Origin: Thermoplasmatales archaeon
GTDB taxonomy: Archaea; Thermoplasmatota; E2; DHVEG-1
Direction: 5' to 3'
Length of the DNA stretch: 64,000 bases
NCBI GenBank assembly: GCA_030672305.1
Contig: DAOVGR010000014.1
Span: 1 to 64,000, forward strand
Shown here: one piece after another, positions 11,643-63,219 of the stretch
How the letters are laid out: every line of letters begins with the position of its first letter
Numbering within the stretch: position 1 is the first letter of the stretch
Position numbers and translations under genes: made by a program
The notes under the pieces: generated by a model
What the model saw: the letters and a program-made list of their open reading frames with translations, nothing else
What the model was told of the DNA's origin: nothing
The model's database searches: none

Positions 11643-11706
11643 AATTACTTTAACTTAATCATAATAGTTTTTAAATAGAGCCTATATTCTGGAGTGGGGA
11701 GGACTT

Positions 11707-13161
11707 CTGAGAATAAAAGATCATCCTGTAATTGATTTCAAGGATAAGAGGAAAATCTCTTTTTATTTTAATAATAAGAAGATCGCTGGCTTAAAAGGTG
11801 ATACCATTGCATCTGCATTACATGTTAATGGTGTAACAACTCTTTCACATAGTTTAAAATATCATAGACCAAGAGGATTTTTCTGTGGAATTGGGAAATG
11901 CTCTTCTTGTTTTATGACAGTTGATAATGTTCCAAATGTCAGAACATGCATAACACCATTGGAAGAAAACATTAGAGTTCTAGAGCAAGATAGAGTCGGT
12001 GAATTGTCTAATAAAAAAAAATTTAACAGAAAGAGAAAAAAAATTGATGTTGATATAGTAATAGTAGGTAGTGGTCCTGCTGGTATGATGGCTGCAATTA
12101 CTGCTGCAAAACAAGGTGTACCATCTATATTATTAGTAGATGAAAATCATCTGATTGGCGGTCAACTTGTTAAACAGTCTCATAAATTTTTTGGATCTGA
12201 AGAAGAAAAAGCTGGAACTCGAGGAATAGACCTCGCAGTTGAGCTTATGGAACAGGTTAATTCTGTTAAAACTATCCAATCCATGCTTAAAACAACAATA
12301 ATAGGATGTTATAATGGAAAGAAAAATCATAAATTAATTGCTATTAAAAGACTAATAGAGGGCGATCAACTCATTGAAATCAATTCTAAAAGTGTAATTT
12401 TTGCTTGTGGGGCTATGGAAAATATGTTGGCTTTTCCAGGCAATGATCTACCTGGTGTCTATGGCGCAGGTGGTGTACAAACCCTTATGAATGTCTATGG
12501 TGTAAAACCAGGTAAAAAAGTATTAATGGTAGGTGCAGGAAATGTTGGATTAATTGTATCTTATCAACTTCTACAAGCAGGTGTTAATGTTGATAGAGTA
12601 GTTGAAATATTGCCAAAAATTGGTGGTTATAATGTTCATGCTGCAAAGCTGCGTAGATGTGGCGTTCCAATATATACCTCTCATTCAATTAAGGAGGTAT
12701 ATGGAAATGGTAAGGTTGAAGGGGCTATTTTAGTAGCAATTAATAATTCATTTAAACCAATACCTGGAACTGAACAAAAGGTTTCTTGTGACACGGTTTG
12801 TATAGCAGTTGGCCTTACACCATCGATACGTTTGTTAGAACAAATTGGCGCAAAGACAGAGTTTATTGCTGAAGCAGGTGGACATGTAGCAATTCATGAT
12901 TCATCGATGCAAACAAGTGTTAAAGGTGTTTATGTTGCAGGGGATTCATCAGGCATTGAGGAGGCATCTACTGCTATGATTGAAGGCCAACTTGCTGGTA
13001 TTTCAGCAGCTACATTATTAGGGTATGATAAACAAGCAGATATGTTAAAGAAAAAATACAGAAAAGCACTGGAAGGTTTTCGTTCGGGTCCTTTTGGCAT
13101 AAAACCAAAGATATGTAAAGAAAAAATTGCCTGTTGTTGGAATGGAGGTATTAACTATTAA
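11707..13161 (+). CDS. sarcosine oxidase alpha-like / proline dehydrogenase alpha-like FAD-dependent oxidoreductase with N-terminal 2Fe-2S domain
   Basis: ORF extended upstream of the track's ATG (11914) in an open frame: R-I-K-D-H-P-V-I-D-F...GFFCGIGKCSSCFMTVDNVPNVRTC; VIVGSGPAGMMAAITAAKQG FAD-binding motif; CTG (11707) occupies the usual start position behind GGGGAGG. Confidence 0.85.
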   Translation: MRIKDHPVIDFKDKRKISFYFNNKKIAGLKGDTIASALHVNGVTTLSHSLKYHRPRGFFCGIGKCSSCFMTVDNVPNVRTCITPLEENIRVLEQDRVGELSNKKKFNRKRKKIDVDIVIVGSGPAGMMAAITAAKQGVPSILLVDENHLIGGQLVKQSHKFFGSEEEKAGTRGIDLAVELMEQVNSVKTIQSMLKTTIIGCYNGKKNHKLIAIKRLIEGDQLIEINSKSVIFACGAMENMLAFPGNDLPGVYGAGGVQTLMNVYGVKPGKKVLMVGAGNVGLIVSYQLLQAGVNVDRVVEILPKIGGYNVHAAKLRRCGVPIYTSHSIKEVYGNGKVEGAILVAINNSFKPIPGTEQKVSCDTVCIAVGLTPSIRLLEQIGAKTEFIAEAGGHVAIHDSSMQTSVKGVYVAGDSSGIEEASTAMIEGQLAGISAATLLGYDKQADMLKKKYRKALEGFRSGPFGIKPKICKEKIACCWNGGINY

Positions 13162-15065: not shown

Positions 15066-15758
15066 TTAACTAACTCTCTTTTTAAATAAATACTTAAAAT
15101 TTTTCCAACCATCTGTAAAACTCTGTAATTTTACTTCTCCTTCACGGGCATATAGAGCAGAGGGTATTTCCTTTGTTTTTATATTTTTATTTGTAAACAT
15201 CTCAATTTTTATCTCTTCTGAAAAAGGCATTCCATCGTTAAAATCTTCTAAAGCTTGAATTTTTTCAAGAGCATCTTTTTTAAATATCCACATGCCAGAT
15301 TGAGAATCTCTAATATTAATAAGATATAAAATACGTAAAGCAAGAGCAAGTATTAGATTTCCAAAATAATGTTTTATAGACATAGATCCATGTTTTAATT
15401 CTGAGAATCTATCTGTAGTTATAAAATCTAGGTTTTCATCAAGTAATTGTTGAATGTACAGATGAATCCTATCAAAAGGATATGTCGCATCGGCATCACC
15501 TGTAACAATAATATCTCCCGTTGCCTTTGATAGTCCTGTTTTATAGGCTCTACCATAGCCTTTTCTTTTTTCAATAATTATTTTCGCTCCCTTTTTTTTG
15601 GCTATATCTTGTGTTTTATCTTTAGAATCACCATCAACAATAATTATTTCAAGGCTCCATTTGTTTTTTTTGAAATAATCCTTATTTATTGAATCAATTG
15701 TTTTTCCAACACCTTTTTCCTCATTTAGAGTTGGTAGAATAACATTTATATTTGTAAT
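15066..15758 (-). CDS. family 2 glycosyltransferase
   Basis: Open frame upstream of the track ORF (15383): ITNINVILPTLNEEKGVGKTIDSI...LEIIIVDGDSKDKTQDIA...GKGYGRA-like KRKGYGRAYKTGL...VTGDADATYPFD; starts with ATT directly after an in-frame stop. Confidence 0.85.
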   Translation of the reverse strand: MTNINVILPTLNEEKGVGKTIDSINKDYFKKNKWSLEIIIVDGDSKDKTQDIAKKKGAKIIIEKRKGYGRAYKTGLSKATGDIIVTGDADATYPFDRIHLYIQQLLDENLDFITTDRFSELKHGSMSIKHYFGNLILALALRILYLINIRDSQSGMWIFKKDALEKIQALEDFNDGMPFSEEIKIEMFTNKNIKTKEIPSALYAREGEVKLQSFTDGWKNFKYLFKKRVS

Positions 15759-15844
15759 TTAAACCACTCCAGTAGAAAAATGTAATAAAGATTAGATTAA
15801 AAAGGTTTCAAAAAAATAAACAAAAAAATTTAAAAAAAAAGATT

Positions 15845-25722: not shown

Positions 25723-28700
25723 GTGAATGATTTGTTAATTGGCATATCACCAGAATATCTTTATTTACATGAAAAAATTCCAAAGGCTATATCAGAATTA
25801 CATAAACCATATTTTTTAGTTTTTTGTCCTAAAGATAGAAATACAGAATCTGCAAGAAAAGACCTTATTAAAAAATGGGAGAACAATAAATCTTCAGATG
25901 ATTCTTTATCCAAAATTAAAGAGATAGGTGAAGTTGAAACCTACCAAAGTTTTTGGGATTCTGGAGCAGATAGAGAGATTTTTAAAGTATTTACTAAAAA
26001 ATCATATTTTGTACCAGATGTAAGTGACTATTTATTTTTCAATCAGGGGTTATATACTGCAGAACATGATATTCCTTATCAACAAAGAGCATTAGTAGAT
26101 CTAGCTGCTGAAGGAAAAACATGGCTTTTTGATACAAATGGAGAAAAAAAGAATCTTAAGGTTTTAGTATATGATATTGAAACATCAGAATTTGAGAAAG
26201 GGAAAGAAAATATTCCGATAGATATCATTGGATTCTCAGATTTTGATATAGTTTTTGATTCAGATAAAGACCTAGAAAAAGAAGAATTTAGTTTTAACAT
26301 TTTAGATTGCCCATCTGATTGGGAGAGTATTGAAGTAAAACAACTTATCTCACGTAATCTTGATGAAGAAATTGATAATCTTTTAAATTTTTGTAGTATT
26401 GTTTCCAAACACGACATAATATCTGGTCATAACATTATTGGTTTTGATAATTTTCATATATATAACAGGTTAAACTGGATTTTAAAAGAAAAGAGAAATC
26501 AACTATCTGATGAAAATAAAAAAATTCTTCAAAATTTTGTAACCAAGAATAGTAGACCTGATAAATCCTTTTATTTTGGGATTCGCTCTGAAGCAGTGCA
26601 ATTCTATCCTTGCAGTCTTGATACATATTTAGGAGTTAGAAAGTTTTATTCTTTCTTGAATGATTTTAGTCTAAAATCAGTTGCTCCATTCCTGGGTATT
26701 GAGGTTAAAGATAGAATAATTTTGACTCCTTCTCAAATTAAAATCGATGAAAGAACTATAAAATATAACAAGCAGGATGTTCAGGAGCAGTTAGGAGTGA
26801 CCCTTAATTTAATTCAACAGTCTCTTCCTCTCGCTTTTACCACTTGTATGCCTTTTGATATGCTACTTTCTTCTGGTGCTGTGTATATGTGGGACCATAT
26901 GTCTCTTATTAGGGCATCTGTCCAAAAAAAGATTATGCCGCCGATTTGTAGAGTAATGTCTATTTCTCAAATTTTGCTGAAATATTTTAAGGATTGTAAA
27001 ACTAGAGAAGATATTGTTAGACAATCTAAAAAAATAAAGGAACAATTGTCAAAGGATTTTGTTCGAGTGATAAAATATGGATATGAAATGCCAAAATGGA
27101 TGGAGGATCCATATGTTATTTATAATGAGAATCCAGCTGATCCTGATGAAAGATTAAATTATCATATGCCTGGTGGTATGACAATGAAACCTGATAAAGA
27201 AGCATTTTCTCATTTTATTCCTTGGTGGTATGTAGTTGTTGCCGATGTTGGAGCAATGTATCCTACAATTCTTAAAGCTATGAATGTGGGTGCAGACACT
27301 GTAAGACTTGCACATAAGACTGAAAAACCTGACGATTGGATTTGGTTAAAAAAACTTCCTGATCGTTTTTTAAGTAGTAGAGATGTAAACTGGAGGAAAA
27401 TTACAAAAGAAGATACTTTTGCAGATGAAGGATTTATGCTTGGCATCAAAATAGACGATAAACCAGGTGTTGTAAATTGTGCTATGACTGGAATTATGAG
27501 TATGATTGCAAAGACAAAAGATGAACTGAAAGAAGCAAAGAAAAGAAACAATGAGGCAGAGTTGCAACGCTTAAAGATGATGTATCAAAGTGTTAAAGGC
27601 GCTCGTAACGCCGGTAGTGTTGATTATTCGCAAAGAATTATTCTCATTAATTCAGAAGGAGAATATGAAAATATTAAAATCGGTGAGTTTGTTGATAAAG
27701 CAATTGATAAATTTGGATATTTTACTGAGAAAATCAATGGTACTGAATTTGAAATTGCCGATATCAAGGATAATTGGAGAGTAGTTTCGATAAATAAGAA
27801 TGGAAAAATTGAAGTCAAGAAAGTAAAACAAGCAGTTAGACATAAATGGAAAGGAAAACTTGTTAAAATCTCGACAAAAAGCGGATTTACAGTTGTTACT
27901 CCAAATCATAGTGTATTTACAATAAAAGATAAAGCGATAAAAGAGATTTCAGCTGGGGAGATTAATGCTGATACTTTGCTTGTTCATGCAAACAAAATTC
28001 CAAATATAGAAAAAAGTCAAAAAATCAACTTGATTAATGCAATAACTAAACCAGGGTATTATGGATTCATAGAAAAAGAAGATTTAAATTATTTTAATGG
28101 TTTGAGAAAAGATTTGGTTAATATAAATCTTAAAGATAATACTTGTACACCCTATTTAAAAATTAAACTTGAAAAACTAAAAAAAATAGATATTCCTGAT
28201 GATCTCTTAAAACATATAACAGTTGGATCAAATGGGAGAAAATCTAGTAGAATTAAATCATATATCAAAATTGATAAGGATCTTGCAGAATTTCTTGGTT
28301 ATTACATTTCTGAAGGCCACACATCTAAAAGAATTATAAATAAAAATCCATTCTATTATATTACAATTTCTAGTGCTTCTAAACAAATGCACAATAGGAT
28401 TCAAGAGATATCTAACAAAATATTTGGTTTAAAGCCATATATGTTAGATAGAAGAAAAACAGCAGGGGTAATTGCATCTACAGTTCACGCAAAAGTTATA
28501 AATCATATCTTTGAAGAAATAATTAAATGTGGAGATAACAGCAGAAACAAACAAATTCCATATCAAATATTATCTGCTTCAAGTTCTGTAAAGGAATCAT
28601 TTTTAAAGGCTTATATGGAAGGCGATGGAAATTTTAAATCTGATATGCCAAATTCCTGTCCATTAGGGAGATTCACAACTAATAGTCGAGATTTAAACGA

Positions 28701-29922
28701 AGATTTGATAACAATACAAAAACAATTTGGAATAAAAATAAACACTTATTTTAGAGAGAGTGAAAAAACATATAATACTAGAATGGTAAATTTTTATAAA
28801 GGAAAAAAAGAGAAATTAGAAGATTGTTATGCAATCCCCCCTAAAAAAATTGAATATATCGATCCATCTTCAGATTATGTTTATGATATAAGTGTTAAGG
28901 ATAACGAAAATTTTATTGATATAAATGGAGGTTTGCTATTACACAATACACATGGCATTTTAGCCGCACCTAGTGTATCTGGTAGACAATTCAATCTTTG
29001 GGGGGCGGCAACAATTACTACAAAAGGACAGTTTATAATGTCTGATACTCTTGATTATTTAAAAAATAAAGGAATCCGTGTTGTATATATAGATACGGAT
29101 GGTGCATATTTAGGATGTTCTCGTTCGGTAGGAAACATTCCTAATCTTTCAAAAGCATTGGACCTTGATGTACCAAATGATGAAAACTCTTGGATTACAA
29201 AACCAGATAAAGCAATAAAAGCAATAGAAGAATGCAACAGCAAATGGCAAAAAGAACTTAATTATCCTGACTTTGAATTAGAGCCCGAAATTCATGACAA
29301 TATGATTTTTGTCAAACATAAGAACTATCTAATTTTTGATAATAAAGATGGAAAAATCGAAATGATTACCAAAGGTAATAATTTCAAGGGCGCAGATAAG
29401 GCAGATATTGCAAGGAAAATTCTCAAAAAGATAATGATCGAAGTCCTAAAAGAAAATCCAACTTGGAAAGACGAGGAAGAAGCAAGAGAATCAGTTAAAA
29501 ACAGTATTATGAACATAACAAAAGAAATCGTTTCAAAACTTGATTTAACCCAGGTAGACCTAGATGATTTAACACTTGTTCAATCTGTTCAACCAGCAAA
29601 AAGGTACAAATTGAATCAGGATGGTTCAATTTCTGTGTTTGGTAAACGTTCTCAAGCATTAGAAAAGCTTATTGGTCAGCCTATAAAGAGTCGTATTAAA
29701 TTCAAATTTGTGGTTACAAAAAGACCTCTTCCAGGTATTATTAAACCATCTAAAAGTGGTGTAAAACCAATTGATTATATGTATCCTGTTGATTTTTTAA
29801 TAAATAAAAACGAAATTGATCTTGATTGGTATAAAAAAATGATTGAAAATTATATCCAGGGAGCATTTGGCTTATCAGATATTGCAATCACTGAGCAAAC
29901 TGGACTAGATGCTTGGATGTAA
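25723..29922 (+). CDS. family B DNA polymerase containing an intein
   Basis: Exo motif YDIETSEF; motif A VVADVGAMYPTIL; motif C VVYIDTDGAYLG; motif B VKGARNAG|THG interrupted by intein; GTG start. Confidence 0.92.
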   Translation: MNDLLIGISPEYLYLHEKIPKAISELHKPYFLVFCPKDRNTESARKDLIKKWENNKSSDDSLSKIKEIGEVETYQSFWDSGADREIFKVFTKKSYFVPDVSDYLFFNQGLYTAEHDIPYQQRALVDLAAEGKTWLFDTNGEKKNLKVLVYDIETSEFEKGKENIPIDIIGFSDFDIVFDSDKDLEKEEFSFNILDCPSDWESIEVKQLISRNLDEEIDNLLNFCSIVSKHDIISGHNIIGFDNFHIYNRLNWILKEKRNQLSDENKKILQNFVTKNSRPDKSFYFGIRSEAVQFYPCSLDTYLGVRKFYSFLNDFSLKSVAPFLGIEVKDRIILTPSQIKIDERTIKYNKQDVQEQLGVTLNLIQQSLPLAFTTCMPFDMLLSSGAVYMWDHMSLIRASVQKKIMPPICRVMSISQILLKYFKDCKTREDIVRQSKKIKEQLSKDFVRVIKYGYEMPKWMEDPYVIYNENPADPDERLNYHMPGGMTMKPDKEAFSHFIPWWYVVVADVGAMYPTILKAMNVGADTVRLAHKTEKPDDWIWLKKLPDRFLSSRDVNWRKITKEDTFADEGFMLGIKIDDKPGVVNCAMTGIMSMIAKTKDELKEAKKRNNEAELQRLKMMYQSVKGARNAGSVDYSQRIILINSEGEYENIKIGEFVDKAIDKFGYFTEKINGTEFEIADIKDNWRVVSINKNGKIEVKKVKQAVRHKWKGKLVKISTKSGFTVVTPNHSVFTIKDKAIKEISAGEINADTLLVHANKIPNIEKSQKINLINAITKPGYYGFIEKEDLNYFNGLRKDLVNINLKDNTCTPYLKIKLEKLKKIDIPDDLLKHITVGSNGRKSSRIKSYIKIDKDLAEFLGYYISEGHTSKRIINKNPFYYITISSASKQMHNRIQEISNKIFGLKPYMLDRRKTAGVIASTVHAKVINHIFEEIIKCGDNSRNKQIPYQILSASSSVKESFLKAYMEGDGNFKSDMPNSCPLGRFTTNSRDLNEDLITIQKQFGIKINTYFRESEKTYNTRMVNFYKGKKEKLEDCYAIPPKKIEYIDPSSDYVYDISVKDNENFIDINGGLLLHNTHGILAAPSVSGRQFNLWGAATITTKGQFIMSDTLDYLKNKGIRVVYIDTDGAYLGCSRSVGNIPNLSKALDLDVPNDENSWITKPDKAIKAIEECNSKWQKELNYPDFELEPEIHDNMIFVKHKNYLIFDNKDGKIEMITKGNNFKGADKADIARKILKKIMIEVLKENPTWKDEEEARESVKNSIMNITKEIVSKLDLTQVDLDDLTLVQSVQPAKRYKLNQDGSISVFGKRSQALEKLIGQPIKSRIKFKFVVTKRPLPGIIKPSKSGVKPIDYMYPVDFLINKNEIDLDWYKKMIENYIQGAFGLSDIAITEQTGLDAWM
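27616..28947 (+). mobile_element. intein (444 aa) with LAGLIDADG-type homing endonuclease domain
   Basis: N-splice block starting Ser (SVDYSQRIILINSEGEYENIKIGE), VVTPNHSVF block B, FLGYYISEGH and FLKAYMEGDG dodecapeptides, C-terminal YVYDISVKDNENFI..GGLLLHN followed by Thr. Confidence 0.95.
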
Positions 29923-32330: not shown

Positions 32331-33290
32331 TCAATTCTTCCTATAAAGTCGTTCAAGTATCAAATCAAGTATTTCTTCAGGACCCCTTATTTTCTTTAAT
32401 TCTCTACGAACAATCAAAGGTGTACCTTCTAAACTTGTCTTATTAACATCTTTATCTGTGATAAGAACTGCATGTTTCTCTGTTACTCTTGAGATACTGC
32501 TAACAACTTGTGCTTTTTTAAGAAGCTTTTTATTATATTCATCTACACAAGTTAGAAGGACTTTCTTTTTATCTTGACTTACAGCTTCAAAAACACATCT
32601 TTCTAGAGGAGTAACCTTATAACCTACTTTCTCAAGGATTGAAAACACCTCTCTTTGAAATCTTCTAAAAACATCTGTTTCTGAAGATACAAATTGAACC
32701 TTCTTTTTTAATTTTTTATTTCTAAATAAATCAATTGGAAGTGAAATATTTGTTCCAAGAGTATCTTCAATTCTAATAGCAACTTCAATAGTAGCATTCA
32801 TCCCATCTTCATACATTTGAACTGTTCTTCTGGATACTTTTAATGAACGGGCAAAAGATCCAAGTGAAATATTCTGCTCTATTCTTGTGTTTTTTATTTT
32901 ATCTTTATCAAGATTTACATATAAACCACCAGGAGCAGCATAAACTTCAAGTGGTATTCCTTCGAGTAGATAGGTTTTAAGTGTTTCTGAGGTAATAGTT
33001 TGAATTCCAAATCTATCATATACTGCGTCATCTTGAATATCTCCTGTTCCACTTTTTTGACCTATAATCAATGGGCACCCTTTTAGCAGTATTGAAAGTT
33101 TTCTGAGTTCACTTGCAACATCTTCTGACATTGCATCAATATTAATCAAAACTTTAATTATCATTAATGAATTGTCTCTTCTTGCAACTAGATCAAAACC
33201 TATTGGTCGCATCAAATAGAGTTCAGAGACATAGAAACCTGCCTTTATCAAGGTGTCTCTGACTTCCCCTAAAAGCTCTAATCGCTTCAT
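32331..33290 (-). CDS. putative HTH transcriptional regulator (COG1395-like)
   Basis: SLGSFARSLKVSRRTVQMYEDGMNATIEVAIRIEDTLG HTH; N-terminal restriction-endonuclease-like fold region. Confidence 0.8.
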   Translation of the reverse strand: MKRLELLGEVRDTLIKAGFYVSELYLMRPIGFDLVARRDNSLMIIKVLINIDAMSEDVASELRKLSILLKGCPLIIGQKSGTGDIQDDAVYDRFGIQTITSETLKTYLLEGIPLEVYAAPGGLYVNLDKDKIKNTRIEQNISLGSFARSLKVSRRTVQMYEDGMNATIEVAIRIEDTLGTNISLPIDLFRNKKLKKKVQFVSSETDVFRRFQREVFSILEKVGYKVTPLERCVFEAVSQDKKKVLLTCVDEYNKKLLKKAQVVSSISRVTEKHAVLITDKDVNKTSLEGTPLIVRRELKKIRGPEEILDLILERLYRKN

Positions 33291-33343
33291 TTGGTAAAAA
33301 ACTAAAGAAGCACTTCATATATATAAGTATCGGGAGTGATATT

Positions 33344-34651
33344 ATTTGGATTGGGATAGATGACACTGATTCAATTTCAGGTGGATGTACAACCTATTTA
33401 GCCTGTGCACTTATTAAAAAATTAACCGATAATAATTATGACATCATTGGTTATCCAAGACTTGTTAGATTAAATCCAAATATCCCTTGGAAGACCAGAG
33501 GTAATGGTGCAATATCACTTCAAGTTGATAAAGGGAAAGGATTAAAAAAAAAAATTGGTGAAATAGATAGTAAAGAAATTTTCTGTTATCAAAATAATTT
33601 ATCAGGGAATTACAACGATATCAAAATTAAAGAAATTGTAGAGCAAATGGTAGATTACTATGCAAGAATAGATGATGAAGAGACAAATCCTGGTTTTGTA
33701 TTACTGACAAAAAAACCTTATTATAGTAGTTATGAAAAAGCTGTACGGGAAATTGTTACATTAGAAAACACAAAAAAGATACTAGGATCATATAACGCAT
33801 ATTATAGAGGATATAAAAATTGTAGAGGCCTTATTGGTGCTACTGCATCTATTGCATGGTCATCTGAAAATGATAATACCTACGAATTAATTGCTTATAG
33901 AAAAGAACAAAAATGGGGTAGTAAGAGATTTGTAGACAACGACTCAACAAAAAAAATGGATAAACAATGTCATTCAACCTTTGATAATTACGATTATAAA
34001 CATAAGCATAATAGGATAATTCCTAATTCGCCCTGTCCTGTTTTGTTTGGTATAAGAGGAACCGATGAAGAAGAATTGATAAATGCAAAATCCTTGATTA
34101 TATCTGAGGAAATTGATTGCTGGTTAATATTTGAAACCAATCAAGGAACTGATGAACATCTTCAAAAAACGACTATTAATAAAATTCAACCATATCAATC
34201 AGTTATTGTAGATGGTAGAGTTGTAAAAGTTCCCTTTACTGTTGAAGGAGGACATGTGTTTTTTACGATAAAGGATTCCAGTGGAGAAATTGATTGTGCA
34301 GCCTATGAACCTACAAAAAATTTTAGAAAAATCATAAGAGAATTAAATCTTGGTGATAAAGTTGAAGTTTATGGAGGTGTAAGAAAAGATCCTCTTACAA
34401 TAAATTTAGAGAAAATCAACATAAAGTATCTTGAAAAACAAGTGGAAAAGGTTGAAAATCCTATCTGTCCAAAATGTGATAAACATATGAAATCAAAAGG
34501 CATCAACCAGGGCTATAGATGTAATAAATGTGGTACAAAAAGTGATAAACCAATATTTAAGGAAATTAAAAGAAACATTAATACTGGTTTATATGAAGTA
34601 CCAGTTTGTGCTAGAAGACATCTAAGTAAACCAATAAAGAGAATAGGATAA
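33344..34651 (+). CDS. tiaS: tRNA(Ile2) 2-agmatinylcytidine synthetase TiaS
   Basis: Upstream extension of track ORF (33647): (I)WIGIDDTDSISGGCTTYLACALIKKL...RLVRLNPNIPWKTRGNGAI; OB-fold and zinc ribbon CPKCDKHMKSKGINQGYRCNKCG; ATT at start position. Confidence 0.93.
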   Translation: MWIGIDDTDSISGGCTTYLACALIKKLTDNNYDIIGYPRLVRLNPNIPWKTRGNGAISLQVDKGKGLKKKIGEIDSKEIFCYQNNLSGNYNDIKIKEIVEQMVDYYARIDDEETNPGFVLLTKKPYYSSYEKAVREIVTLENTKKILGSYNAYYRGYKNCRGLIGATASIAWSSENDNTYELIAYRKEQKWGSKRFVDNDSTKKMDKQCHSTFDNYDYKHKHNRIIPNSPCPVLFGIRGTDEEELINAKSLIISEEIDCWLIFETNQGTDEHLQKTTINKIQPYQSVIVDGRVVKVPFTVEGGHVFFTIKDSSGEIDCAAYEPTKNFRKIIRELNLGDKVEVYGGVRKDPLTINLEKINIKYLEKQVEKVENPICPKCDKHMKSKGINQGYRCNKCGTKSDKPIFKEIKRNINTGLYEVPVCARRHLSKPIKRIG

Positions 34652-56930: not shown

Positions 56931-59756
56931 TTGAAAGATATTACAATAAAGGGAGCTAGAGAACATAATCTTAAAAATATTAACTTAGTAATCCCTAGAG
57001 ATAAGTTTATTGTAATTACTGGAATATCTGGTTCTGGAAAATCAACTCTTGCATTTGATACTATATATGCAGAAGGGCAACGCCGTTATGTTGAATCACT
57101 TTCTGCTTATGCAAGACAGTTTTTAGGACTGATGCATAAACCTGATGTTGATAGCATTGAAGGTCTTTCTCCTGCAATTTCAATTGAGCAAAAATCAACA
57201 AGTAAAAATCCACGTAGTACTGTAGGAACTATTACAGAAATATATGATTACCTTAGACTTCTTTATGCAAGGGCTGGTACTCCTTATTGCCCAGAACATA
57301 ATTTAAAAATTGAATCTCAATCTCCTGAAAAAATTTCAAAAAGAATTGGTGAAGATTTTAAAGGTATGATAACAATTCTTTCCCCTATTATTCGACAGAA
57401 AAAGGGAACATATGAACAACTTTTTACAGATTTAAATAAAGAAGGTTGGACAAAAGTACGTGTTGATAAAGCTATATATCGAACAGATGAGACAATAACC
57501 TTGGACAGATACAAAAAGCATGATATTGAAATCGTAATTGATAGGTTTAAAAATGAAGATAAAACAAGACTTGCTGAAGCAACTGAAAATTCCTTAAAAA
57601 AATCAGATGGATTAGTTATCGTTCTAGATAAAAAAGGAAATGAAAAATTGTATTCTTCAAAAATGGCTTGCCCAAAGTGTGGAATGGTTTTTGAAGAACT
57701 TCAACCACGTATGTTTTCATTTAATAGTCCATTTGGAGCCTGTGAAAAATGTCATGGTCTTGGAATTAGAATGGACTTTGATCCAAATCTTATAATTCCT
57801 GATAAGGAGCTATCAATTGCAGATGGAGCTATAAAACTTTATAGAAATGCAATTGATGGCTGGCGGATTAAATTTTTAGGTTCAGTTGCCAAACATTTTG
57901 GTTTCGATATATTCACTCCAATTGCAGATCTTAATGAGGAGCAATATGATGTTTTAATGTATGGTTCTCCTGAAAAAATACATTTTAACATGACCTCTAG
58001 TACCAAAGATGCTCAATGGTCAGGAATGAGTTCTTGGGAAGGATTCATACCTCAATCTGAAAGACTTTATAAACAAACTGAATCTGAATATCGCAGAAGA
58101 GAGCTTGAAAGATTCATGAGGATTTCACCATGTCCAGTTTGTAATGGTAAAAGACTCAAACAAAAAGTGTTATCAGTAAAGATTACTGATAAATCAATAA
58201 TTGATTTAACAGATATGTCAATAAAACAAGCTATAATATTTTTCAAGACATTGATACTATCAAAAAAACAAGAGGAAATTGCATGGCAGATCTTAAAAGA
58301 AATAAAGGTTCGGCTTGATTTTCTTGACAAGGTTGGACTTAACTATTTAACCCTATCAAGAAGCTCTGGTACTCTTTCAGGAGGGGAAGCGCAAAGAATT
58401 AGACTTGCGACCCAGATTGGATCTAATTTGATGGGTGTTGTATATATTCTTGATGAACCCTCAATAGGACTTCATCAAAAGGATAATAAAAAACTAATTG
58501 ACACACTCTATAAGCTAAGAGATCTTGGAAATACTCTAATTGTTGTCGAGCATGATGAAGAAACAATTCGTCATGCTGATTACGTTGTGGATTTAGGACC
58601 TGGTGCTGGTCTTCATGGTGGGAAAATTATTGCTAAAGGAACTCCAGAAGAAATTGAAAAGCATCCTACATCATTAACAGGTAAATATTTGTCCGGAAAG
58701 CTTCAAATTCCGCTTCCAAAAAGTAGAAGAACATCAGATAAATTTTTACACATCTTTGGTTGTAGAGAACACAATCTAAAAAATGTAAATGTTCAAATCC
58801 CAATTGGTGTCTTAACCCTTATTACAGGTGTCTCTGGAAGTGGAAAATCAACTCTTGTTTATGATATTTTATTTAGAGGTCTTATGAGGAAAATCCATAA
58901 TTCTAAACAAAATCCTGGAGATCATGATGCTATTGTTTTTGATGAGAAAATCGATAAAGTAATTGTTATTGATCAAAGTCCAATTGGAAAGACTCCTCGC
59001 AGTAATCCTGCTACTTATACCAAGGTTTTAGATGAAATTAGAAAACTTTTTTCAAAAACACCCGAAGCAAAAAGACGTGGTTATAAACCTGGTAGATTTT
59101 CTTTCAATGTTAAAGGTGGAAGATGTGAAGCATGCCAGGGCGATGGTCTAATAAAAATTGAAATGAACTTTTTACCTGACATTTACATAGAGTGTGAGGA
59201 ATGCAAGGGAAAAAGATACAACAGTGAAACCCTTGAAGTAAAATTTAAGAGCAACTCAATTGCAGATATACTTAATATGAGTGTTGAAGAGGCTCTTGGT
59301 CTTTTCCAAAATATTCCATTTATTAAAAGAAAACTTGAAACTTTATCACAAGTTGGACTTAATTATATTAAGCTTGGACAGAGCTCAACAACACTAAGTG
59401 GAGGAGAGGCTCAAAGAATAAAACTTACAAGGGAACTTTCTAAAAAAAGCACAGGACGAACCATTTATCTTTTGGATGAACCAACAACAGGTCTTCATTT
59501 TCATGATGTAAAAAAGTTAATCGATGTGTTGAATAGTCTTGTTGATAAAGGAAATACCGTAGTAGTTATTGAGCATAATCCAGATGTAATTAAATCTGCA
59601 GATAACATAATTGATCTAGGTCCTGAAGGTGGTGACCTTGGAGGTAAAATTATTGCAAGTGGAACACCTGAAGAGGTTTCACAAAATTCTAAAAGTTATA
59701 CTGGTGAGATTCTGAAACCATTTTTTAAGGATAAGGAAAAATGTTTGACACAATGA
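56931..59756 (+). CDS. uvrA: excinuclease ABC subunit A
   Basis: ITGISGSGKSTLAFDTIYAEGQRRYVESLSAYARQFL, two ABC signatures, CxxC zinc motifs; TTG start. Confidence 0.98.
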   Translation: MKDITIKGAREHNLKNINLVIPRDKFIVITGISGSGKSTLAFDTIYAEGQRRYVESLSAYARQFLGLMHKPDVDSIEGLSPAISIEQKSTSKNPRSTVGTITEIYDYLRLLYARAGTPYCPEHNLKIESQSPEKISKRIGEDFKGMITILSPIIRQKKGTYEQLFTDLNKEGWTKVRVDKAIYRTDETITLDRYKKHDIEIVIDRFKNEDKTRLAEATENSLKKSDGLVIVLDKKGNEKLYSSKMACPKCGMVFEELQPRMFSFNSPFGACEKCHGLGIRMDFDPNLIIPDKELSIADGAIKLYRNAIDGWRIKFLGSVAKHFGFDIFTPIADLNEEQYDVLMYGSPEKIHFNMTSSTKDAQWSGMSSWEGFIPQSERLYKQTESEYRRRELERFMRISPCPVCNGKRLKQKVLSVKITDKSIIDLTDMSIKQAIIFFKTLILSKKQEEIAWQILKEIKVRLDFLDKVGLNYLTLSRSSGTLSGGEAQRIRLATQIGSNLMGVVYILDEPSIGLHQKDNKKLIDTLYKLRDLGNTLIVVEHDEETIRHADYVVDLGPGAGLHGGKIIAKGTPEEIEKHPTSLTGKYLSGKLQIPLPKSRRTSDKFLHIFGCREHNLKNVNVQIPIGVLTLITGVSGSGKSTLVYDILFRGLMRKIHNSKQNPGDHDAIVFDEKIDKVIVIDQSPIGKTPRSNPATYTKVLDEIRKLFSKTPEAKRRGYKPGRFSFNVKGGRCEACQGDGLIKIEMNFLPDIYIECEECKGKRYNSETLEVKFKSNSIADILNMSVEEALGLFQNIPFIKRKLETLSQVGLNYIKLGQSSTTLSGGEAQRIKLTRELSKKSTGRTIYLLDEPTTGLHFHDVKKLIDVLNSLVDKGNTVVVIEHNPDVIKSADNIIDLGPEGGDLGGKIIASGTPEEVSQNSKSYTGEILKPFFKDKEKCLTQ

Positions 59757-61291
59757 ATCTACCAAATGAACCTGGATGTTATCTTTTCAAAGATAAAAAT
59801 GAAAATGTGATCTATGTTGGAAAGGCAAAGAATCTTAAAAAAAGAATTAAGCAATATAGCAAGAAAAATGATTTTGATATTAAAACTCAATCAATGCTCA
59901 ATTACATAAAATCAGTTGATTTTGTCGCAACTGATAATGAAGTTGAAGCATTAATTCTTGAAAATACCTTAATTAAGAAATATCAACCAAAATACAATAT
60001 TAGATTAAAAGATGCAAAGACACATTCATATATCCTTTTAACCGATGAAAAATATCCTCGGATTTTAATCGCTAGACAAAAAAACGAAAAGGGTAAATAT
60101 TTTGGACCATTTGTATCTGCGACTGAACGCGATTATGTCTTACGATTTCTAAAAAAAACGTTTTTAATAAGGTCTTGCAAAAGACTTCCTAAAAAAGCAT
60201 GTTTAAGATATCATATTAACCTTTGTGAAGCACCATGTATAGGTCTTATTTCTCAAAAAGATTATGAAAATAAAATTGAAAATGTAAAACTTATTCTAAC
60301 TGGTCATACAGATAAACTTATCAAAAAATTAAAGACAGATATGAAATCTTTTTCAAACAATAATTATTTTGAAAGTGCACTAAAAATACGAAATCAGATA
60401 ACTGCTATTGAACATCTTAATGAACGTCAAAATATGCAGCGTGAGAAAAAATATAATGAGGATATTATAAACTATGAAATAAAAGATGATAAAGTGTATC
60501 TCATGCTTTTTAATATCTATAAGGGAACTCTCAATAATAAAGTTGATTTTGTTTTTGATTATAATTCTGATTTTCTTGAGGAGTTCATTGTTCAATATTA
60601 TTCAGATAGTCCTGTTCCAAAGGACCTTATCTTACCAATAAAACTGTCTGATTCAATAGCAACTTTTCTTGAAAATTTGAAAGGAAGTAAAGTAAAAATA
60701 ATCAAACCTGAGAAAGGGGAGAAAAGACAACTTTTAAATCTTGTTTTGAAAAATATTGAAATTACATTTTTTGCAGATATTGACAAGGTTGAAACCTTAA
60801 AAACTAAATTAAATCTTCAGGAAAATCCAAATGTAATCGAATGTTTTGATATCTCTCATTTGTCTGGTACTTCTACTGCTGGTTCAATGGTTCAATTCAG
60901 AAATGGTAAACCTGATAAGAGCAATTATCGAAGATTTAAAATTCGAAGTGTTGAAGGAATTGATGATACAGCAGCAATTGCTGAAGTGGTTAGACGAAGA
61001 TATTTCAGGCTTAAATCCGAGGATGCGGATCTACCTGATTTAATAATTATCGATGGAGGTAGAGGTCAATTAAACTTTTCTCTTCAGGAACTTGTTAAAC
61101 TTGATTTAAAAATACCAATAATTTCCATTGCAAAACAATTTGAAGAAATCTATCTTCCAGGTAGAATACTACCATTAAGAATATCAAAAAAAGACAAAGC
61201 ACTTCAATTCATACAAGAAATAAGGGATGAGGCTCATCGTTTTGCAATAAAATATAATCGTCTTCTACGTAAAAAAGAGTTGATTTCATGA
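59753..61291 (+). CDS. uvrC: excinuclease ABC subunit C (lacking C-terminal HhH domain)
   Basis: GIY-YIG region PGCYLFKDKNENVIYVGKAKNLKKRI; VIECFDISHLSGTSTAGSMV; ends IRDEAHRFAIKYNRLLRKKELIS. Confidence 0.96.
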   Translation: MNLPNEPGCYLFKDKNENVIYVGKAKNLKKRIKQYSKKNDFDIKTQSMLNYIKSVDFVATDNEVEALILENTLIKKYQPKYNIRLKDAKTHSYILLTDEKYPRILIARQKNEKGKYFGPFVSATERDYVLRFLKKTFLIRSCKRLPKKACLRYHINLCEAPCIGLISQKDYENKIENVKLILTGHTDKLIKKLKTDMKSFSNNNYFESALKIRNQITAIEHLNERQNMQREKKYNEDIINYEIKDDKVYLMLFNIYKGTLNNKVDFVFDYNSDFLEEFIVQYYSDSPVPKDLILPIKLSDSIATFLENLKGSKVKIIKPEKGEKRQLLNLVLKNIEITFFADIDKVETLKTKLNLQENPNVIECFDISHLSGTSTAGSMVQFRNGKPDKSNYRRFKIRSVEGIDDTAAIAEVVRRRYFRLKSEDADLPDLIIIDGGRGQLNFSLQELVKLDLKIPIISIAKQFEEIYLPGRILPLRISKKDKALQFIQEIRDEAHRFAIKYNRLLRKKELIS

Positions 61292-63219
61292 ATGAATTTA
61301 AACTTGTAAGTGATATGGAGCCAAAGGGTTCTCAACCTGAGGCAATAAAAAAACTTGTTGAAGGTCTAAAAAGAGGTGAAAAGTTACAGACACTTCTTGG
61401 TACAACGGGATCTGGAAAAACTTTTTCAATGGCAAAAATAATTGAGAAAATACAGAGACCAACACTTGTTCTTGCACATAACAAGACTCTTGCAGCTCAA
61501 CTTTTTTCTGAATTCAAAGAATTCTTTCCAGAAAACAGAGTCGAATATTTTGTTTCATATTATGATTATTACCAACCAGAGTCATATATTCCTTCTAAAG
61601 ACCAATACATTGAAAAAGATGCAGATGTAAATCCAAAAATAGAACAGATGAGACTTGCTGCTACTGCATCTGTTTTATCTCGTGAAGATGCAATTGTTGT
61701 TGCCTCTGTTTCTTGTATTTATACTGTTGGAAATCCAACTGATTTTATGTCACTTGGTTACGAGTTTAGAAAGGAATTTAATGTTAATAGAAGTGAAATT
61801 CTCGAGCGCCTTGTTGATATGCAATACGAACGAAATGACCTGTCTCTTGCACCTGGAAGATTTAGAGTAAAAGGCGATACAATTGATCTGATTCCTGGTT
61901 ATTATGACAATATAATTCGAATTGAGCTTTTTGGTAATGAAATCGAAAAGATATCTGAAATCGATAAGATAACTGGTAACATAATTGATGATTTAGATTA
62001 TATTTTTGTTTATCCTGCAAAGCATTTTGTTATTAGAGAAGATAAAAGAAATCGTGCAATTGAAGCAATAAAACAAGAACTTGAAGAAACCCTTCCAAAG
62101 CTTGACATGATTGAAGCTCATAGACTGAAACAGAGAACTCTTTATGATATAGAAATGCTTGAAGAAACAGGTTTTTGCAAAGGAATTGAAAATTATTCAC
62201 GACATTTCGACGGCAGAAAACCTGGTGAAAAACCATATTGTTTTCTTGATTATTTTCCTAAAGATTTCTTAATGTTTATTGATGAAAGCCATAGAACAAT
62301 ACCACAGATTCATGGAATGAATCATGGTGATCATTCTCGAAAAAAGGCTCTTATAGACTATGGTTTTAGACTCCCTAGTGCTTTTGATAATCGGCCTCTT
62401 ACCTATGATGAATTTTTTGATTATATGAAAAATGTAATTTTTGTATCTGCAACACCTGGTGATTATGAGCTTGGTATTTCCAAGTCCATTGTCGAACAGA
62501 TCATTCGACCTACAGGTCTTGTTGATCCTCCTGTTGAAATAAGAAAAACAAAAGGACAAATCGATGATTTAATTTCTGAAATAAATTCCACAATTGCTCG
62601 TGGTGATAGAGTCCTTGTAACAACACTTACTAAACGACATGCTGAAGAACTTTCTGAATTTTTAGCTGAAAAAGAAATCAAAACTAGATATCTCCATGCA
62701 GAAATAGACACCCTTGAGAGATCTGAAATTATAAGACATCTTCGTCTAAGAAGATTTGACGTATTAGTTGGAATTAATCTACTCAGGGAAGGTCTTGATA
62801 TTCCTGAAGTTGGTTTTATAGGAATTCTTGATGCAGATAAAGAAGGATTTTTACGTGACCATAGAAGTCTCATTCAAATAATTGGAAGAGCAGCAAGAAA
62901 CGTTAATTCAAAAGTGGTGCTATATGCAGATAATATAACAGATTCAATTAAGAGAGCACTTGATGAAACAATTAGAAGGCGAAATATGCAAATTGTTTTT
63001 AATAAAAAACATAATATAACTCCAACAACAATTATTAAACCGATAAAAGAAAAGATAATAGATGTAAAAGATGTAAAGCATATTCCTAAAAAAGATATTC
63101 CAAATATGATAGTTGATCTCGAAATTGAGATGAGAAAGGCAGCAGATGAACTAAATTTTGAAAAAGCAATTTATCTAAGAGATAGAATTAATAGGTTGAA
63201 ACAAACAATTAGAATATAA
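61288..63219 (+). CDS. uvrB: excinuclease ABC subunit B
   Basis: LLGTTGSGKTFSMAKII, YVSYYDYYQPESYIP-like, GINLLREGLDIPEV, C-terminal UVR motif. Confidence 0.98.
   Translation: MNEFKLVSDMEPKGSQPEAIKKLVEGLKRGEKLQTLLGTTGSGKTFSMAKIIEKIQRPTLVLAHNKTLAAQLFSEFKEFFPENRVEYFVSYYDYYQPESYIPSKDQYIEKDADVNPKIEQMRLAATASVLSREDAIVVASVSCIYTVGNPTDFMSLGYEFRKEFNVNRSEILERLVDMQYERNDLSLAPGRFRVKGDTIDLIPGYYDNIIRIELFGNEIEKISEIDKITGNIIDDLDYIFVYPAKHFVIREDKRNRAIEAIKQELEETLPKLDMIEAHRLKQRTLYDIEMLEETGFCKGIENYSRHFDGRKPGEKPYCFLDYFPKDFLMFIDESHRTIPQIHGMNHGDHSRKKALIDYGFRLPSAFDNRPLTYDEFFDYMKNVIFVSATPGDYELGISKSIVEQIIRPTGLVDPPVEIRKTKGQIDDLISEINSTIARGDRVLVTTLTKRHAEELSEFLAEKEIKTRYLHAEIDTLERSEIIRHLRLRRFDVLVGINLLREGLDIPEVGFIGILDADKEGFLRDHRSLIQIIGRAARNVNSKVVLYADNITDSIKRALDETIRRRNMQIVFNKKHNITPTTIIKPIKEKIIDVKDVKHIPKKDIPNMIVDLEIEMRKAADELNFEKAIYLRDRINRLKQTIRI

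Follow-up and report, generated by a model that had tools for sequence, protein, structure and literature searches.

The gene of the predicted tRNA(Ile2) agmatidine synthetase TiaS, located at positions 33344–34651 on the forward strand of the window, the 64,000-nt stretch of archaeal DNA analysed here, begins with an ATT codon at 33344–33346. The analysis establishes where the gene starts, that this start is conserved and accompanied by a Shine-Dalgarno (SD) sequence, and that the unusual codon is gene-specific and recurs in other lineages. Sequence comparison further suggests that tiaS is probably translated from this AUU and that the codon serves as a conserved weak start, similar to that of infC, which throttles the production of TiaS.

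The tiaS frame comprises 435 codons from the ATT plus a stop codon, and its product matches four Pfam domains above their cut-offs, TiaS_TCKD (PF22641; 1.4e-46), TiaS_FLD (PF08489; 5e-39), an OB fold (PF01336) and Zn_ribbon_TiaS (PF23783), which are arranged in the order TCKD, FLD, OB and zinc ribbon. The NCBIfam equivalog model NF040849 covers the full length of the protein with an E-value of 3.6e-123 and 411 bits, the curated cut-off being 600 bits. By its sequence scores, therefore, the protein ranks as a divergent member at the NF040849 threshold while exceeding the Pfam cut-offs. The genome to which the window belongs contains several tRNAs with a CAU anticodon.

The start region reads TATCGGGAGTGATATT-ATT-TGG-ATT-GGG-ATA-GAT-GAC-ACT-GAT, and the TiaS_TCKD match begins at residue 2 of the protein read from the ATT. 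Upstream, the frame stays open back to 33263, and no in-frame ATG, GTG or TTG occurs between the upstream stop codon and the conserved W-I-G-I-D-D-T-D-S motif. An ORF caller has to begin at the ATG at 33647, the earliest canonical codon, and so drops 101 conserved residues and with them the N-terminal portion of the catalytic domain. A previous sequence-only reading of this DNA had proposed that tiaS lacks a canonical in-frame start at its conserved N-terminus and starts instead with the ATT at 33344, 5 nt downstream of GGGAGTG, and both proposals are borne out by the sequence and by the aligned relatives. There are two tandem ATT codons, at 33341 and 33344. The position of the first varies freely among relatives, and that of the second is an invariant AUY, so the start is assigned to 33344 and not to 33341. 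The absence of an upstream canonical start, the aligned AUY in relatives and the onset of protein conservation all mark this same codon.

The relatives are Thermoplasmata/Thermoplasmatota MAGs and may correspond to marine benthic group D (Thermoprofundales). A TiaS search of 60 related genomes gave a match in 54 of them, and the upstream DNA was read in these 54 genomes and in 80 named records. At the aligned start position, 15 genera of the window's family (f1) have ATC or ATT, as does one genome of a sister family (G036). No nearby canonical alternative was found upstream of the ATC or ATT in many of the f1 genes, and in six of them (L018, L025, L029, L062, L063 and L066) an in-frame stop lies just 2–3 codons upstream, leaving only the AUY or a non-start codon available. 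The order contributes 26 sequences with AUY, 23 of them ATC and 3 ATT. In this set, the amino-acid entropy is about 1.8–2.4 bits at the eight preceding codons, with about 1.9 at position -1, and falls to zero both at the AUY codon itself and at the Trp after it. These entropy values, like the SD energies given below, are not independent observations because the sequences are related. Outgroup families carry ATG or GTG at exactly the aligned codon, and some members of the family itself have ATG either there or at the codon immediately upstream (L023, L038, L040, L034, L020 and L031). The odd codon can be dispensed with, as 11 of 39 tabulated copies in the order have a canonical start either at the site itself or no more than two codons away; five further copies are ambiguous, with a canonical codon 3–5 codons upstream. 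One MAG (G018) contains two TiaS copies, with ATG (L023) and ATC (L046), respectively, and could represent mixed strains (6% contamination).

The start codons found at TiaS are narrowly restricted. All unambiguous cases are AUC, AUU or, once, AUA, and neither CUG nor ACG was found at the TiaS start site. GTG and TTG never occur at the aligned position within the order, and they make up 65 of the 271 first canonical codons in the genome of the window, where they are ordinary starts. A tree built from 93 TiaS proteins places 24 of the 28 sequences with an unambiguous AUH start in one 34-member clade and the rest elsewhere. In about six other lineages of the Thermoplasmatota, ATC or ATA has appeared separately as the start (L085, L091, L109, G124, G226 and G086), with SD matches of -7.6 to -14.3. 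An artefact of annotation or assembly, whether an error in the sequence or a genuine start further upstream in a different frame, might be suspected because the data come from MAGs and because standard ORF calling truncates tiaS. However, dozens of related species carry ATC or ATT there in separate, independent assemblies, so that neither chance nor a sequencing error accounts for the ATT; the stops just upstream, the co-occurrence of the SD and the conservation that begins exactly at the codon also speak against an artefact. This explanation has a negligible probability and is rejected for practical purposes.

The SD sequence GGGAGTG of tiaS (33332–33338, forward strand) ends 5 nt before the ATT and is predicted to form a duplex of -9.8 kcal/mol with the anti-SD AUCACCUCCU. 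In relatives, it is preserved as GGGAGTGA or GGTGA. Every one of the 29 AUH-start TiaS genes reaches an SD energy of -7.2 kcal/mol or better, with a mean of -8.4 kcal/mol. The mean is -2.1 kcal/mol for the 47 canonical-start TiaS genes, most of which are without an SD, and -5.3 kcal/mol for the ATG genes in the genome of the window. The AUH cases from the unrelated lineages listed above share the strong-SD pattern.

The upstream region also bears on whether this block acts as an SD at all. A gene for an HTH-type regulator with a normal ATG start (32331–33290, reverse strand) diverges from tiaS, and a homologue of this neighbour is also found in G028 and G008. The divergent gap of 53 bp (33291–33343) contains a putative TATA-like element at 33317–33326, read from the sequence and given no strand. 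A near-symmetrical TATATATA in the same gap might serve either gene. A TATA-like element is present about 20–27 bp before the tiaS start in many family members, and together with the shortness of the gap this would fit a leaderless mRNA beginning near the AUU, with the GGGAGTGA block being promoter-proximal DNA. However, the block varies among SD-like alternatives (GGGAGTGA, GGTGA and GGAGG), pairs with the anti-SD in every AUH case, unrelated lineages included, and is kept as GGTGA in L018, L025 and others that have no clear TATA at this place. A leaderless transcript is thus very improbable.

Two other genes in the window begin with non-canonical codons. A Fer2_4/FAD oxidoreductase subunit (11707–13161, forward strand) has a CTG start with the SD GGGGAGG at 11696–11702; its Pfam Fer2_4 match (1.6e-26) runs from residue 28 of the open frame, upstream of the first canonical start, and the aligned codon in relatives is CTG, TTG, GTG or ATG. 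A family 2 glycosyltransferase (15066–15758, reverse strand) has an ATT start directly after an in-frame TAA, with the SD GGAGTGG at 15764–15770; Glycos_transf_2 matches from residue 6 (2.9e-24), and the start is CTG or AUH in family relatives and ATG in outgroups. The CTG and the second ATT case cited in the sequence-only reading are thereby located at 11707 and 15758, and its count of three genes in 64 kb that combine a GGAG-type SD with a non-canonical start holds, all three being conserved as non-canonical or variable in relatives. Elsewhere in the window, a frame of 1399 codons for a family B DNA polymerase (25723–29922, forward strand) is interrupted by an apparent intein (about NAGSVDYSQRII... 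to ...GGLLLHNTHG), as judged by eye from the translation, and a complete uvrA-uvrC-uvrB run lies at 56931–63219 on the forward strand of this archaeal genome.

Such companions raise the possibility of a lineage-wide relaxation, in which an initiator tRNA with C at position 33 makes near-cognate starts (CUG, AUU, AUC, AUA and ACG) tolerable and TiaS is one of many genes whose starts have drifted. Besides the glycosyltransferase and the Fer2/FAD oxidoreductase, near-cognate starts are seen in an Fe-S oxidoreductase with CTG in G028 and in a POR-domain gene with ACG in G008. The latter (L241:13718-14308, reverse strand; indolepyruvate oxidoreductase beta-like) has no canonical start near its conserved N-terminus, and its ACG follows a AAGGAGGG SD directly past a TAA stop. 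A coding-signal scan, which is limited to genes where the signal extends 12 or more codons upstream of any canonical start, flagged 20 of 738 genes in three family genomes versus none of 223 in one outgroup genome (about 275–420 kb sampled per genome; one-sided Fisher p 0.005). However, the outgroup is represented by a single genome, and the few-percent rate is rough because some flagged genes look broken, as pseudogenes or sequencing frameshifts. Accordingly, own_607, own_62 and several other flagged genes that look like pseudogene or repeat fragments are not used as evidence by name. A pairwise ortholog comparison between G028 and G008 yielded just 73 non-overlapping gene pairs with few clear cases.

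The initiator tRNA follows the family boundaries closely. Its anticodon loop is GGGCCCATAACCC in nearly every f1, f2 and f3 genome where it was found, and GGGCTCATA in f4, f6, f7, f8, f9 and f10 where found, so that f1–f3 have C33 (CCCAUAA) whereas f4 and f6–f10 have U33 (CUCAUAA). One f1 genome (G025) is an exception with another sequence at this loop. C33 is the state reported for eukaryotic initiator tRNAs in a study of metazoan tRNAs (PMC9023262), and the replacement of U33 by C33 in this archaeal order is alike; the order differs in being archaeal, and the link of its C33 to near-cognate starts is a correlation only. C33 is neither necessary nor sufficient for an AUH start of TiaS: three genomes combine AUH with U33 (L085, L091 and L109), and others combine ATG with C33 (L089, L078 and, in f3, G039). 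C33 alone is therefore rejected as the explanation of the TiaS start. The initiator tRNA gene of about ten family genomes appears to be interrupted after a 4-nt 5' exon (AGCG) by a short intron, which sits at an unusual position inside the acceptor stem, with the layout CATCATAGCG...GCCTATAA-GGGTGGGG; the putative loci include G000:C57 at about 4603 (L374) as well as L384, L387, L388, L389, L392, L393, L400 and L401. Editing as the origin of the mismatched acceptor stems in these roughly ten tRNAs was dropped, as the short 5' exon and intron explain them. A separate 19.7-kb contig (G000:C51; for example L336, L360-L362, L364, L368 and L369) carries about 15 tRNA genes, among them a presumed tRNA-Pyl (CTA) and one or more with an encoded CCA end; it is possibly a virus, a plasmid or a contaminant.

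The remainder of the initiation machinery appears ordinary. The control gene KAE1 has ATG as its start in every one of the 15 order genomes where its pattern matched, aIF1/SUI1 is present in the genome of the window and throughout the order, and relatives carry the normal GGATCACCTCCT as their 16S 3' anti-SD tail; the 16S end of the window's own genome was not found on search. These three observations speak against a blanket relaxation of start selection. The loss of aIF1 is rejected, as is an altered anti-SD in the relatives. It had been suggested earlier that start selection is relaxed in this lineage, perhaps through differences in IF1/IF2/IF3-like factors, and that the 16S tail should be compared. 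The excess of flagged genes over the outgroup supports the first part, and the uniform ATG of KAE1 limits it; the factor explanation is not supported, the correlate found being C33 of the initiator tRNA and not an initiation factor, and the tail comparison in relatives gave nothing abnormal. Non-canonical starts in this group are thus both gene-specific and lineage-wide, to different degrees. As an account of the TiaS start, lineage-wide relaxation is possible, but we consider it doubtful. The restriction to AUC, AUU and a single AUA at TiaS, never CUG or ACG, together with the recurrence in other lineages, points to gene-specific selection. Archaeal aIF1 has been reported to destabilise initiation complexes on non-AUG mRNA (PMC6237735), and it would be a natural brake on the AUY start of TiaS.

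In the throttle mechanism that we favour, the SD GGGAGUG would position the 30S subunit so that the initiator Met-tRNA with its CAU anticodon meets the AUU codon. The pairing would be mismatched at the third codon position, and TiaS would still begin with Met. The strong SD would support initiation on AUU or AUC, the weak codon appears to have been retained by selection in this archaeal family, and it may keep TiaS scarce as a translational throttle of the infC/sigR type, with a low output and a regulatory benefit. The C33 initiator tRNA may raise the tolerance of the order for near-cognate starts without alone explaining TiaS. The task of TiaS is to modify C34 of tRNA-Ile2 (CAU) while sparing the initiator and elongator Met tRNAs, which also carry CAU. 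Plausibly, the enzyme is kept scarce because it must modify one CAU tRNA and spare the other two. Pure drift in a permissive lineage could also produce AUC or AUU at TiaS. However, it leaves unexplained why GUG, UUG and CUG are missing here; the narrow choice of codons, the lack of GUG and UUG within the order and the emergence of AUH in several lineages argue for selection on the codon rather than drift.

A few genes of bacteria and organelles are known to have kept non-canonical start codons in evolution. The infC gene for bacterial IF3 starts with ATT in Escherichia coli and ATC in Streptomyces and is autoregulated by IF3, and the GTC start of Streptomyces sigR is a translational brake that keeps its product in ratio with its partner (PMC5472188). 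In chloroplasts, conserved non-AUG starts are reported for particular genes, not genome-wide (PMC9845219). Like infC, tiaS belongs to the translation apparatus and has an AUU/AUC start. However, tiaS is archaeal, has a different product and works with aIF1/aIF2 instead of IF3; several sister species have AUG, and feedback has been shown for infC alone. With sigR, tiaS shares a non-canonical start as a brake, putative in the case of tiaS, whereas sigR is bacterial, has GTC instead of AUH and is regulated according to experiment, tiaS being known from its sequence. The chloroplast genes share the conservation of a non-AUG start in particular genes and differ in their organellar, bacterial-type translation. 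No archaeal precedent for a conserved non-canonical start was found in the literature searched, a limited collection.

The infC parallel also invites stronger forms of regulation. If the level of TiaS or the modification state of tRNA-Ile2 fed back on the AUY start as IF3 does on infC, the preservation of AUU/AUC in a translation-apparatus gene and its recurrence in several lineages would be accommodated. However, there is no known route from agmatidine at C34 of tRNA-Ile2 to a change in initiation at AUY, and such autoregulation is quite improbable. A broader scenario, in which the order gained an animal-type C33 initiator, became permissive for near-cognate starts and uses the AUY of TiaS as a sensor of initiation stringency in the manner of infC, is likewise unlikely.

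That TiaS of this uncultured Thermoplasmata group retains an unusual start codon along with a strong ribosome-binding site suggests a deliberate brake. If the regulation is real, throttling of a decoding enzyme through its start codon has arisen independently in archaea. Furthermore, the order-wide C33 initiator provides a natural test of whether position 33 of the initiator tRNA sets the stringency of start-codon selection, which bears on animal cells as well.
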